Part shown: one piece after another, positions 26,676-57,569 of the stretch
Position numbering within the stretch: the first letter of the stretch is position 1
Layout: the number at the start of each line of letters is the position of its first letter
Assembly: GCA_947454705.1 (NCBI GenBank)
Contig: CANGKZ010000002.1
Span: 142,882 to 206,881, forward strand
Origin: Verrucomicrobiota bacterium
GTDB lineage: Bacteria > Verrucomicrobiota > Verrucomicrobiia > Limisphaerales > UBA9464
DNA length: 64,000 nt
Direction: 5' to 3'
Program-made: the position numbers and the translations under genes
The notes under the pieces: model-generated
The model's input: only the letters and a program-made list of their open reading frames with translations
Databases searched by the model: none
Told to the model about the DNA's origin: nothing

Positions 26676-28040
26676 TCAGATCGCGAAGTCGTTGTATTCC
26701 GGTTTCACCGCTTCGAGGGCGGGTTGCAGCATGCCGGCGGCGACGGTGGCGTTGGTGCCTTGTTCGATCAGGATGAAGGATCCGGTCAGACGGTTGGTCG
26801 CGTAGCCGTCGTAGATCAGCGGCTTGGCGGTCTTGATGCGGATCTCACCAATGTCGTTCAACACCAGCTCCGAGGGCTCGGGCTGCACTTCGTAGTTGTT
26901 GATGTTGATTCGGCTGTCGATCGAGGTGACCACCGCCTGCACGGTTTGCGTGGTGTGCTTGAGGAAGTACTTCCGGCCGCGTTGCAGCGGACGCGCATTC
27001 ATCCAGCAGACCTTGGCGTGCAGATCCGTTCCCATGCCGGGCAGCGATTCGAGGCCGACAATCATGTCGCCCCGGCTGATGTCGAGATCGTGCGCCAGTT
27101 GGATCGTGACGCTCTGCGGGCAGAAGGCCTCGGGGATGGCGCCATCGTAGGTCCAGATTTCCTTCACCGTGCTGCGATGTCCGCTCGGGAGGACCATGAC
27201 CTTTTGTCCCACCTTAATGATGCCGCTGGCGACCTGGCCGCTCAGGCCGCGGAAGTCGTGAAGCTCCTTGTTGGTCGGGTTGTTTGGGCGATTCACCCAC
27301 TGCACCGGCAGACGGAATCCATTCAGATTGAGATCGCTGGCAATGTGCACCGTTTCCAGATGACCGAGCAGCGTGGGGCCGACGTACCACGGCGTGTGCT
27401 TGGACGGGTCCACGACGTTGTCCCCGTTGAGTGCGCTCATGGGGATGAACTTCACGTCCTTGATGTCGAGGAGCGGGAGGAACTTCTCGAACTCGGAACG
27501 GATCTCCAGGTAGCGCTGCTCGCTCCAGTCCACGAGGTCCATCTTGTTGATGGCGATGACCAGATGGGGGATGCGCAGGAGCGAGGCGAGGTAGGTGTGG
27601 CGGCGGCTCTGCTCGATGACGCCTTGGCGCGCGTCCACGAGGACGATCGACAGGTTTGCCGTGGAGGCGCCGGTCACCATGTTGCGCGTGTACTGCACGT
27701 GCCCCGGGGTGTCGGCCACGATGAACTTGCGTCGGGGCGTGGCGAAGTAGCGGTACGCCACATCGATCGTGATGCCCTGTTCGCGTTCCGCGCGGAGACC
27801 GTCGGTGAGGTTCGCGAGGTTGATCTGTCCGCCGCCGGTGAGGTCGGCCGAACGTTCGAGGGCTTCGATCTGATCCTCCATCAGCGACTTGGAGTCATAC
27901 AACAAGCGGCCGATCAGGGTGGACTTGCCGTCATCCACCGATCCGCACGTGTTGAAGCGCAGGAGTTCGACCGGCGCGCCGGAAGAGGGGGATTGGGAGA
28001 TCGGAGATCGGAGATCGGAGATCGTGGGTGGGTTCGACAT
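26676..28040 (-). CDS. cysN: Sulfate adenylyltransferase subunit 1 (GTPase)
   Basis: GTPase subunit of ATP sulfurylase; with CysD it makes adenosine 5'-phosphosulfate. 454 residues, without the C-terminal APS-kinase domain of NodQ-type fusions. G-motifs are intact: GSVDDGKST at 33-41, DTPGH, and NKMDLVDW. The EF-Tu-like domains 2 and 3 follow. The first 20 residues (TISDLRSPISQSPSS) are low in complexity and encoded by a 7-bp tandem repeat (27997-28024), so the functional protein begins at APVELLRFN. It is the last gene of the cysH-cysD-cysN operon, separated from cysD by a four-helix-bundle gene remnant. Confidence 0.95.
   Translation of the reverse strand: MSNPPTISDLRSPISQSPSSGAPVELLRFNTCGSVDDGKSTLIGRLLYDSKSLMEDQIEALERSADLTGGGQINLANLTDGLRAEREQGITIDVAYRYFATPRRKFIVADTPGHVQYTRNMVTGASTANLSIVLVDARQGVIEQSRRHTYLASLLRIPHLVIAINKMDLVDWSEQRYLEIRSEFEKFLPLLDIKDVKFIPMSALNGDNVVDPSKHTPWYVGPTLLGHLETVHIASDLNLNGFRLPVQWVNRPNNPTNKELHDFRGLSGQVASGIIKVGQKVMVLPSGHRSTVKEIWTYDGAIPEAFCPQSVTIQLAHDLDISRGDMIVGLESLPGMGTDLHAKVCWMNARPLQRGRKYFLKHTTQTVQAVVTSIDSRININNYEVQPEPSELVLNDIGEIRIKTAKPLIYDGYATNRLTGSFILIEQGTNATVAAGMLQPALEAVKPEYNDFAI
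27997..28024. repeat. Perfect 7-bp tandem repeat inside the 5' end of cysN
   Basis: Four exact copies of GAGATCG. On the coding (minus) strand they encode ISDLRSPIS, the low-complexity N-terminus of CysN. The array is followed outside the gene by another heptamer array at 28060-28087. Confidence 0.9.
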
Positions 28041-28059: not shown

Positions 28060-28087
28060 AGCTGGAAGCTGGGAGCTGGCAGTTAGG
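28060..28087. repeat. Heptamer array AGCTGGN next to the four-helix-bundle remnant
   Basis: Four units: AGCTGGA, AGCTGGG, AGCTGGC, AGTTAGG. The last one contains, on the minus strand, the stop codon of the four-helix-bundle remnant. A related array with GGAGATG/GGAGCTG/GCAGATG units is at 57493-57513, and its complement is at 9382-9416. Confidence 0.75.
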
Positions 28088-28235
28088 CGGATGCGGTTCG
28101 GCGCTGGGTGGTCCGGATCAGGCCGGAGACCAACCGCCCGGTTTGAGCAACGAAAGCCATCATCTTTTGATGTTCTTCAACGGTGAGATACGCGGCATCC
28201 AACATGACGTAAGAACGAGAACGAACTTCTCCAAA
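28083..28235 (-). pseudogene. Remnant of a four-helix-bundle (S23/IVP-like) gene
   Basis: After the cysD stop codon the minus strand encodes GEVRSRSYVMLDAAYL, TVEEHQKMMAFVAQTG and RLVSGLIRTTQRR in one frame to a stop at 28083. This matches the last third of four-helix-bundle proteins (…AxYLxxEEh…L…hGRhLxGLIR…). It aligns with the C-terminus of the intact copy at 29216-29719 (ERYLPAEEIAALRES ... MLAGYLRYLRER). The start and first helices are missing, so it is a truncated copy. The stop codon falls in the heptamer array at 28060-28087. It interrupts the cysD-cysN spacing. Confidence 0.7.
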
Positions 28236-28237
28236 GA

Positions 28238-29176
28238 TCAGAAATAGCCTGCTTTCTTGCGGTCCTCCATGGCGGCTTCGCTGGCTTTGTCGTCGGCGCG
28301 GGTGCCGCGTTCGGTGACGCGGGCGGCGGAGACTTCGCCGATGATGTCGTCCACGGTGTTCGCCGGGCTCTCGATCATGCCGGTGCTGATCATGTCGGCA
28401 ATCGTTCGCACGCGGACCACGAGCGTTTTGATCGGTTCCTTGGCGGTCGGACGCGCGCCGGCGTACGGATCGGGCTTGGTGGCGTCGGTGTGGGCCGGCG
28501 GGACCGGCAGCCATTGTCCGCCGCGACGGAAGCACTCGCGCTGGTGGCTGAAGTAGATGTTGGGAACTTCGAGGCGCTCCTTCTTGATGTATTCCCAGAC
28601 GTCCATTTCGGTCCAGTTGGACAGCGGGAAGACGCGCATGTTTTCGCCCGGGTTGAGGCGGCCGTTGTAGAGATTCCAGATCTCCGGGCGCTGGTTCTTG
28701 GGGTCCCACTGACCGAAGGCGTCGCGGAAGCTGAAGAACCGTTCCTTGGCGCGGGCTTTTTCCTCATCGCGTCGGGCGCCGCCGATGGCGCAGTCGAAGC
28801 GGAATTCCTCGATGGCTCCGAGGAGCACCGGGATTTGGAGTTTGTTGCGGCTGATCTCGCCGGGGGCCGGGACGGCGGTGCCGTTGGCGATGGCCTGATC
28901 GACGGTGCGGACGATGAGTTTGGCTCCGAGTTCAGCGGCGCGGCGGTCGCGGAATTCGATCAGCTCGGGGAATTCGTGTCCGGTCTCGACGTTGAGGAAC
29001 GGCATCGGGATGTCGGAAGGCCGGAACGCCTTTTCCGCGAGTCGGAGGAGGCAGATGGAATCCTTGCCGCCGGAGAAGAGCAGGGCGGGCCGCTCGAATT
29101 CAGCCGCCACCTCGCGCATGATGTGGATGGCCTCCGTTTCGAGGTACTCAAGATGGTCCAGATGGTACGATTTCAT
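28238..29176 (-). CDS. cysD: Sulfate adenylyltransferase subunit 2
   Basis: ATP-PPi-lyase subunit of ATP sulfurylase, partner of CysN. 312 residues, close to the usual 302. The PP-loop SGGKDS is at 35-40. FLNVETGHEFPELIEFRD, AIGGARRDEEKARAKERFFSFRD and the C-terminal GRATERGTRADD-like block (here ARVTERGTRADDKASEAAMEDRKKAGYF) are all standard. The start is ATG 29176; 14 bases before it lies the left octamer array of the four-helix-bundle cassette, so the native cysH-cysD spacing has been expanded to about 600 bp. Reading through the cassette is needed for cysH-cysD-cysN to stay one operon, unless a new promoter lies inside it. Confidence 0.96.
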   Translation of the reverse strand: MKSYHLDHLEYLETEAIHIMREVAAEFERPALLFSGGKDSICLLRLAEKAFRPSDIPMPFLNVETGHEFPELIEFRDRRAAELGAKLIVRTVDQAIANGTAVPAPGEISRNKLQIPVLLGAIEEFRFDCAIGGARRDEEKARAKERFFSFRDAFGQWDPKNQRPEIWNLYNGRLNPGENMRVFPLSNWTEMDVWEYIKKERLEVPNIYFSHQRECFRRGGQWLPVPPAHTDATKPDPYAGARPTAKEPIKTLVVRVRTIADMISTGMIESPANTVDDIIGEVSAARVTERGTRADDKASEAAMEDRKKAGYF

Positions 29177-29190
29177 TGCTGAAAGCAGTC

Positions 29191-29222
29191 GTTGAAAGGT
29201 TGAAACGTTGAAGCGTTAAAGG
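29191..29222 (+). repeat. Left inverted octamer array of the four-helix-bundle cassette
   Basis: Units GTTGAAAG, GTTGAAAC, GTTGAAGC, GTTAAAGG, followed by GGGG. The array is inverted relative to that at 29762-29793. The TAA stop codon of the four-helix-bundle gene (29216-29218, minus strand) lies in its last unit. Confidence 0.85.
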
Positions 29223-29719
29223 GGGGAAGAGCCAAGGGTCTCCTCTTCGCCGTCGAATAGGTCGGATGGGGAATCGGTTTCGTGCAGGGCAAGTGATGCT
29301 CCCTGCTTTCGTTCGCGCAGGTATCGGAGGTATCCGGCAAGCATCCGGTGGATTTTCCATGCGGACTCCCTCAAAGCCGCGATCTCTTCGGCCGGGAGGT
29401 ATCGTTCGTCTTCGCAGACGTTGAGGTCGTCGATCAATTCCTCCAGAGAGCCACGCGAAATCAGGGTGAATCGGATTTGATCCAGGTAGTGAAAACGTCC
29501 GTGCCCTTCGGCGATGTTGTTGGTCAATGAAACGGCAGCGCGCCGAATTTGGCCGGCCAAACCAAACCGTTCCGATTCGGGGAGGCCGCGTGCGACCGCG
29601 TACATGACCCGTCGGAACTCCCGCGAAAGGCGGTAGACCTCCAAGTCCTCAAACGTCTTGAAGCTCCGTTGGGAGACCGGAGCTTCTGCAGGGGCTGCGT
29701 TGTGGTTGGTTTGTTTCAC
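29216..29719 (-). CDS. Four-helix-bundle protein (S23/IVP-like)
   Basis: 167 residues. The motif FKTFEDLEVYRLSREFRRVMYAVARGLPESERFGLAGQIRRAAVSLTNNIAEGHGR covers helices 1 and 2 and is the hallmark of the family found in 23S rRNA intervening sequences and scattered in many genomes; the Avd accessory protein of diversity-generating retroelements has the same fold. FTLISRGSLEELIDDL and ERYLPAEEIAALRES give helices 3 and 4. A polar tail of about 25 residues follows. The start is GTG 29719. Pentameric bundles with basic surfaces bind nucleic acid in Avd; here the function is unknown and no reverse transcriptase or variable repeat is nearby. Confidence 0.88.
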   Translation of the reverse strand: MKQTNHNAAPAEAPVSQRSFKTFEDLEVYRLSREFRRVMYAVARGLPESERFGLAGQIRRAAVSLTNNIAEGHGRFHYLDQIRFTLISRGSLEELIDDLNVCEDERYLPAEEIAALRESAWKIHRMLAGYLRYLRERKQGASLALHETDSPSDLFDGEEETLGSSPL

Positions 29720-29761
29720 ACGAGTAGGTCAACGGAGTCGAATGCGTTCCAGCGCATGGCC

Positions 29762-29793
29762 CCTTCAACCCTTCAACGCTTCAACCTTTCAAC
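29762..29793 (-). repeat. Right inverted octamer array of the four-helix-bundle cassette
   Basis: Read on the minus strand: GTTGAAAG, GTTGAAGC, GTTGAAGG, GTTGAAGG, then GG. It contains the TGA stop of cysH (29781-29783). Confidence 0.85.
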
Positions 29794-30458
29794 ACACCTC
29801 CGCCAACCGCCTTGCCGCCCCAGGAGGCGTGGAGGCCGCATTCGCGCTTCTCGTCAGCCTTGGCCGGATCGAAGTAGTCCCACTCGTTCGGCAGCGAGTG
29901 CTGCTTCAGGTAGGCTTCCATGTCGGCGTCGGACCAATAAAACAACGGGCTCACCTTCAGGGAGTTGAAATTCGCGTCGGGACTGACGATGTCGAGTCCG
30001 GCGCGGTTCGGGTTCTGCACCTGACGCAACGCCGTGATCCACACCGCGGGCGCGAGCTCGCGCATGCCGCGCTGGAACGGCTCCAGCTTCATCACGGTGC
30101 TAAACGCCTTGATGCGCTCCTCGTTCTCCGGCGTGGGTTCGGGCATCCCGCCATGAACCGCATCGTAGTGCGCCGCGGTGAGCCGGGGCAGATACGCCTT
30201 CCGGTTCAACTTCAGCCGGGCGGTGAGATCCTCGGCGTGCTTGTAGGTGGCAGGACGGTTGTAGCCGTGGTCCACCCAGAGCACCGGAATATCGGGCTGC
30301 ACCTGCGTGACCAGGTGCAGGATCACGGCCTCGTACGGACGGAAATTGGTGGAGACGATCGCGCGGCCGGGCGACTGCTGCAGGGCCCAGCGGATGATGT
30401 CCAGGGGCGATTGAGAGCGGAGCTGGGCGTTCGCCTGGGCGAGGGATTCGGGAGTCAT
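29781..30458 (-). CDS. cysH: Phosphoadenylyl-sulfate (PAPS) reductase-type protein
   Basis: Thioredoxin-dependent reductase that turns activated sulfate into sulfite. 225 residues. The N-terminal PP-loop-like region reads AIVSTNFRPYEAVILHLV, and WVDHGYNRPATYKHAEDL, REL...WITALRQVQNPNRAGLDIV and the catalytic C-terminal motif KRECGLHASWG follow in order. The paired cysteines (CCxxRK and CxxC) of iron-sulfur APS reductases are absent, so PAPS is the expected substrate, but no APS kinase gene lies in the window. The last four residues and stop codon come from the octamer repeat. First gene of the cys operon, start ATG 30458, divergent from the peroxiredoxin gene. Confidence 0.9.
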   Translation of the reverse strand: MTPESLAQANAQLRSQSPLDIIRWALQQSPGRAIVSTNFRPYEAVILHLVTQVQPDIPVLWVDHGYNRPATYKHAEDLTARLKLNRKAYLPRLTAAHYDAVHGGMPEPTPENEERIKAFSTVMKLEPFQRGMRELAPAVWITALRQVQNPNRAGLDIVSPDANFNSLKVSPLFYWSDADMEAYLKQHSLPNEWDYFDPAKADEKRECGLHASWGGKAVGGGVLKG

Positions 30459-55372: not shown

Positions 55373-55516
55373 AACCACAGATGGACACGGATGAACACAG
55401 ATGGAAATGCACCGAACGGAAGGCCTCATGAATCAATCAGAAGGTGACAATCGTCGATCCTCTCTAGAGCCACCCATCTTCCTCTCTATCTGTGTGAATC
55501 TGTGTCCATCTGTGGT
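55373..55516. repeat. 144-bp element with inverted 10-bp-periodic ends
   Basis: Left end: AACCACAGATGGACACGGAT then GAACACAGATGG (55373-55404). Right end, read on the minus strand, AACCACAGATGGACACAGAT then TCACACAGATAG (55485-55516). These are near-identical inverted arrays of a CACAGATGGA-type decamer with an 80-bp middle. The middle and right half recur at 1993-2082. The element nearly fills the 272-bp gap between the fusion gene and an oxidoreductase gene; nothing else is seen there. Confidence 0.75.
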
Positions 55517-57537: not shown

Positions 57538-57569
57538 CTTTCAACGCTTCAACTTTTCAACCCTTCAAC
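57538..57569 (-). repeat. Solo octamer array in the TSUP/dnaG gap
   Basis: On the minus strand GTTGAAGG, GTTGAAAA, GTTGAAGC, GTTGAAAG: the first three units match in order the array at 1711-1742 (one base apart in the third). It ends 11 bp before the dnaG stop codon. Confidence 0.75.

Follow-up and report, generated by a model that had tools for sequence, protein, structure and literature searches.

S23/IVP genes between inverted short-tandem arrays: a cassette at a cysH-cysD junction and its counterparts across bacterial phyla

Genes of the S23/IVP and GxxExxY families are both widespread and have no assigned function; until now S23 was known mainly from insertions in rRNA genes. The intervening sequence (IVS) of the 23S rRNA of Coxiella burnetii has an S23 ORF and a terminal stem, and was earlier suspected to be mobile (PMC4990558). 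A co-occurrence with CRISPR has also been reported, with 18 genes in cas loci (PMC3936711). The solved relative 2GSC is a ring of five four-helix bundles, according to the passage of PMC4990558 that cites it. Its fold is homologous to that of Avd, the accessory protein of diversity-generating retroelements (PF05635 / 2GSC resembles 4DWL; PMC10053308).

Here, we analyze an S23 cassette found in a stretch of 64,000 nucleotides (the window) of a Verrucomicrobiota genome, G000. It resembles the 23S rRNA IVS in its family, its size (~430-600 bp), its stem-forming terminal inverted repeats, and its sporadic distribution. However, it lies outside an rRNA gene and is flanked by cysH and cysD. S23 cassettes also differ from the IVS in the lineage-specific 7-8-bp tandem arrays that make up their ends, in their many gene-less relatives, and in the lack of a covariation bias on the sense strand. 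A search of the 8 genomes that represent the genus gave no match to reverse transcriptases (RVT_1), which indicates that diversity-generating retroelements are absent there, and we rejected a reverse transcriptase as helper of the cassette.

Other described repeats share part of this architecture. MITEs and the DNA transposons with terminal inverted repeats (TIR) also comprise short gene-less copies that are dispersed between genes and end in the same terminal repeats as a relative with a gene, whereas the S23 form has no known transposase, no target-site duplication that we could find, and an array unit that depends on the lineage. REP/REPIN sequences and their RAYT (Y1) genes (PMC3116915, PMC3733652) are likewise small extragenic inverted pairs, amplified in some genomes, with a suspected mobiliser gene. 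In contrast, S23 is a four-helix bundle, the ends are octamer or heptamer arrays rather than GTAG-tagged palindromes, and the gene is inside the element. Finally, the STRR are intergenic direct repeats of the heptamer TAACTGA in Beggiatoaceae and cyanobacteria, with a sporadic and apparently horizontal spread (PMC4679880). They are intergenic tandem heptamers of sporadic occurrence like the arrays described here, but were reported with neither a linked gene nor an inverted architecture.

Arms of the window cassette and of S23 genes elsewhere

The cassette (29191-29793, 603 bp) consists of one S23/IVP four-helix-bundle gene enclosed by inverted arms at the cysH-cysD junction (Table 1). Each arm has 34 nt, i.e., four GTTGAANN octamers followed by GG, and the two are 91% complementary and 535 nt apart. 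An earlier note on this DNA had proposed an S23-family gene flanked by inverted octamer arrays, and the arm and profile matches bear this out. It gave the arrays a length of 32 bp, whereas each arm, with its GG, has 34 nt. It had also assigned the stop codons of the inner gene and of cysH to the left and right arrays, respectively, and both do lie inside the arms. The protein matches PF05635 (23S_rRNA_IVP) with 96.7 bits (E 1.1e-27, cut-off 33.8), TIGR02436 with 89.1 bits (cut-off 24), and 2GSC with an E-value of 3e-15 (phmmer). Profile searches with this protein returned PF05635 and its NCBIfam counterparts alone, and no known transposase. We know of no nuclease motif in S23. Remains of a second element separate cysD from cysN, and in a relative, G001, the S23 gene at the position matching the remnant at 28083-28237 is intact. 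The GGAGATC array is a translated part of the CysN N-terminus in G001 too.

Table 1. Positions of cassette parts, neighboring genes, and gene-less arrays in the window
Feature	Position	Strand	Remark
Left terminal arm	29191..29224	+	Downstream of the S23 gene; four GTTGAANN octamers + GG; carries the S23 stop codon
S23/IVP four-helix-bundle gene, 167 aa	29216..29719	-	PF05635 / TIGR02436; solved relative 2GSC (pentamer)
Right terminal arm	29760..29793	-	Upstream of the S23 gene; four octamers + GG; carries the cysH stop codon
cysH (PAPS reductase)	29781..30458	-	Last codons VLKG* array-derived
cysD, downstream neighbor of the cassette	28238..29176	-	Identity by sequence and operon order
Remnant of a second S23 gene (decayed, C-terminal part) at the cysD-cysN junction	28083..28237	-	58% identity over 36 aa to an S23 protein, E 3e-14
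GGAGATC x4 heptamer array, outer arm of the decayed second element	27996..28024	+	Read as CysN N-terminus
AGCTGGA-type short array adjoining the S23 remnant	28060..28079	+	-
Gene-less octamer array GTTGAAGG GTTGAAAA GTTAAAGC GTTGAA	1711..1740	+	Followed by the MITE interior motif GGAGTCCCGTCTTCAGACGG
Gene-less octamer array, 30-nt consensus of the genome-wide family	57540..57569	-	-
Gene-less pair, left arm, ~10-bp units (CACAGATGNA)	55376..55403	+	Unit type flanking the GxxExxY gene of G000
Gene-less pair, right inverted arm	55488..55514	-	Partner of 55376..55403

A set of 58 related genomes, many of them incomplete assemblies, yielded 105 PF05635 genes. Each gene was given the score of the best inverted match of its left and right 400-bp flanks, with a threshold of at least 14. 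Inverted short-tandem arms were found around 85 of 104 S23 genes and around 12 of 455 other, mechanically called ORFs of the same stretches (2.6%; Fisher 9e-68). The median arm scores were 18.5 and 9.5, respectively. The picture was similar in a second, independent set, which comprised 80 S23 loci in GTDB contigs (Cyanobacteria, Acidobacteria, Bacteroidota, Verrucomicrobia, Planctomycetes, Nitrospirae, and others), with inverted arms at 55 of 79 loci against 6 of 167 controls. About 20-30% of the S23 genes have no arms at this threshold. Among the 140 passing elements, the period of the array is 7 in 93, 8 in 24, 6 in 11, and 9 or 10 in the remainder. The S23 cassette architecture is real and general: arrays accompany such genes elsewhere, in most of ~180 loci, so that the idea of a cassette withstood the refutation set for it in the earlier note, a lack of such company. 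We found no description of it in the openly licensed papers that we searched, although other papers may hold one.

The unit is the same in both arms of an element and varies between lineages (GTTGAARN, AGTTTTCR, GGAGTCA, AGTNATC, GGGTCTG, AAGGCAA, and others). Across 9,575 pairs of elements with non-homologous flanks, the similarity of the units increases with that of the proteins (Mantel r 0.50, 0/999 permutations). The correlation holds within the relatives (r 0.25) and within the cross-phylum set (r 0.37) taken apart, with 0/999 permutations each. The co-variation at such non-syntenic sites indicates that gene and arms evolve as a single cassette, and the S23 protein may recognize the unit of its own cassette. 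We also looked for a common order of variant units in the two arms of one element, and discarded it as a weak signal (16 of 84 elements at p<=0.05, a figure biased by the choice of arms).

Arms sit tightly at gene ends. Among the 117 elements whose co-directional upstream gene ends at most 150 nt away, the stop codon of this gene is inside the arm in 29 and at most 12 nt outside it in 50. Hence, the coupling of arms and stop codons is a frequent consequence of this position, and not fixed as the earlier note had it. The S23 gene is mostly co-directional with its neighbors. Mechanical ORF calls gave a ratio of 30:2 for the relatives, or 27:7 when genes were called more strictly, and of 40:1 across phyla. 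This bias may result from a dependence on read-through or from selection against antisense insertions.

Variable junctions and gene-less copies

The cysH-cysD junction is polymorphic in the genus of the window. It holds the S23 cassette in G000 and G001, a GxxExxY gene flanked by CACGGATTT arrays in G006 and G007, a hairpin made of GGGAGATGG units and without a gene in G003 and G005, and only a short empty spacer in G002 and G004. In more distant genomes, the junction has a GTTGAAGG-type S23 cassette (G016) or unrelated cassettes of the GGGTCTG type (G032, G036). The S23 protein of the window shares 73% identity with its counterpart in G016 and 31% with the one in G032, and the units of G000 and G032 are unrelated, which implies that this junction was struck more than once. 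These empty, otherwise filled, and gene-less junctions of relatives support the insertion of an element with terminal repeats that had been suspected at this site.

Other junctions vary likewise. Between metK and ahcY, G005 has an S23 cassette of the AGTTTTCG type and G003 an AGTAATC array alone, and the AhcY of the two are identical across the 209 aa compared. In Picosynechococcus, the cmr2-cmr3 junction on a plasmid of strain PCC 7003 (L407) is occupied by an S23 cassette, whereas that of PCC 7002 is a 12-nt spacer. The stop codon of cmr2 comes from the 5' array of this cassette, and the 3' array terminates at the ATG of cmr3. This filled and empty pair is a direct example of insertion between cistrons. 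The S23 gene of L407 thus lies within a type III-B CRISPR operon. We also sought a clean empty site for a gene-less AGTTTTC copy in G003 and G005, the closest pair available. The site tested turned out to be common to both and decayed in G003, and another lacked synteny.

Arrays also exist without the gene, as the earlier note had stated: two octamer arrays are in the window (Table 1) and many are spread over the genome. We counted the period-8 triple of GTTGAA (GTTGAANNGTTGAANNGTTGAA), taking overlapping matches singly, so that arrays are fewer than matches. There are 293 matches in G000 and 248 in G016, the two well-assembled genomes bearing a cassette of the GTTGAA type, then 17 in G006, 9 in G039, 2-3 in three genomes, and 0 in 51. 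When the pattern is read backward, it has no match in G000 and one across all genomes. G001 has the cassette and just 2 triples, in an assembly that is 54% complete, and no S23 gene of the GTTGAA type was detected in G006 despite its 17 triples. Amplification is associated with the presence of the cognate S23 gene (Fisher 0.0018, for few genomes). The AGTTTTCR triple is found 13 times in G005, 9 in G003, 8 in G017, 6 in G025, 3 in G006, once in three genomes, and not elsewhere. G005, G017, G025, and G006 carry an AGTTTTC-type cassette; G003, the sister of G005, does not.

An inverted partner was present at 8 of 20 sampled array sites of G000, and one-armed copies are frequent. Six of the two-armed copies are 241-246 bp long and resemble each other in their interior; the other two, of 319 and 344 bp, have a different one. 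The MITE copies of G000 have the same kind of TIR as the window cassette, with 34 bp and four octamers, and hold their interior in common. At 11 of the 20 sites, the 30-nt array is identical, with the unit variants in the same order, which points to a master copy as their source. It is also doubtful that the gene-bearing form is non-autonomous, as had been proposed, because it resembles the master and the gene-less copies its dependants. Arrays pile up at some intergenic junctions (L351, L353, and L369 in G000, L384 in G005), where those of GTTGAA, GATGCTGG, GGGAGAT, GAATTNC, and AGTTTTC are nested or adjacent. An extra inverted AACCTAGAAACGGCA borders some gene-less copies of G000 (L361, L364, L001), and a similar AAACGGCAGTT borders copies of the CACAGAT type.

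Possible routes of movement

We think it rather probable that the cassette is a compact mobile element of DNA, whose S23 protein recognizes its own array and helps to mobilize gene-less copies in trans. The element would consist of a single S23/IVP gene flanked by terminal inverted repeats built as lineage-specific 7-8-bp tandem arrays, and would insert in the short gaps separating cistrons. Most likely, a multimer of S23 binds its unit at both ends and is needed for movement, as suggested by the way in which protein and unit vary together and by the pentameric ring of the solved relative. The numbers of gene-less copies, two-armed and one-armed, with the same ends, point to their mobilization in trans across the genome. 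Cutting and joining may be done by a host nuclease or transposase, or by S23 itself. We favor movement at the DNA level, given the many copies in genomes without a detectable reverse transcriptase and the arm mismatches, which show no excess of G-U on the sense strand. As for the traces that movement could have left at its targets, we found no target-site duplication of fixed length in the 140 elements, and none in the two-armed copies of G000; the boundaries are blurred by the array ends. Flank similarity is slightly in excess, for direct and inverted matches alike, which is probably residual array. An inverted duplication that seemed to extend into the unique flanks of L055 and L225 proved to be native coding sequence.

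An IVS-like element acting at the RNA level is an unlikely alternative, even if part of the data fit it. The stem formed by the arms would be cut by RNase III, making insertions in rRNA or between cistrons tolerable, and the element would spread by reverse transcription or by rare recombination. In the folded transcript of the cassette, the arms pair over their full length (z -7), the IVS of Coxiella joins its S23 ORF to a terminal stem of 28 bp that RNase III cuts in vitro (PMC4990558), and the co-directional bias is in line with a role of the transcript. However, this bias may reflect just selection for read-through expression. The mismatches of the arms on the sense strand comprise 115 G-U and 128 A-C, and without an excess of G-U there is no sign of selection for pairing in this strand. 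The lack of RVT_1 in the genus, the dispersion of gene-less copies with the same ends, and the high frequency of one-armed ones also argue against this explanation.

It seems to us somewhat less likely still that the arrays owe their movement to some unrelated helper, for instance a Y1 (REP-associated) transposase, and that S23 is a passenger caught by chance between copies of the array. Y1_Tnp matches are present in 52 of the 58 genomes, with one gene in G000, and both the failure to find a target-site duplication and the excess of gene-less over gene-bearing copies are compatible with such a helper. Yet the unit tracks the lineage of the S23 protein across phyla, which is unexpected of a passenger, S23 cassettes are found in G051 and G054, both lacking a Y1_Tnp match, and array ends have no REP-like GTAG palindrome. 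It is very improbable that the repeats of the arrays have a regulatory or structural function and that S23 is a domesticated protein which binds RNA or DNA and regulates its operon (sulfate assimilation here, metK-ahcY elsewhere), because, while cassettes return at identical operon junctions in several genera and some are retained between species, close relatives have these junctions empty, with another gene family, or with a gene-less array alone, and the neighbors include unrelated operons, e.g., the CRISPR cmr genes.

S23 array cassettes occur in many bacterial phyla and suggest that a kind of mobile element has gone unnoticed. If S23 and GxxExxY proteins are working parts of array-bounded elements, then their odd distribution, the presence in rRNA, and the co-occurrence with CRISPR would follow from insertion between cistrons and not from a role in a pathway; the association of S23 with cas genes may thus reflect insertion rather than function. 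The heptamers of the STRR may be gene-less arms of S23-like elements, which would offer an origin for these intergenic repeats (PMC4679880). The nature of the rRNA intervening sequences would also become directly testable, by the specificity of protein for unit in vitro.

A parallel in GxxExxY genes

More broadly, we tentatively suggest, as a possibility that we rate below the mobile element itself, that S23 are unrecognized transposition proteins, with a 7-8-bp word in the tandem-array ends that is read by one lineage and differs from those of the others, and with a GxxExxY parallel using words of ~10 bp. The two families would then make up a super-class of minimal mobile elements that is found in many bacterial phyla and has the rRNA IVS as one special insertion site. 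GxxExxY genes (TIGR04256; PF13366, PDDEXK_3) belong to the PD-(D/E)XK nuclease superfamily. Inverted arrays with units of ~10 bp flank 22 of 28 GxxExxY loci (L181-L210), including L198 in the genome of the window (G000:C9:42813-43151). The GxxExxY unit CACAGATNNA occurs 69 times in G000 and 35 times in G039, where it flanks a GxxExxY gene in both, and 13 times in G007. Part of the control ORFs that passed the arm threshold in the S23 analysis look like GxxExxY genes, and the control at L043 has the arms of the GxxExxY locus L193.
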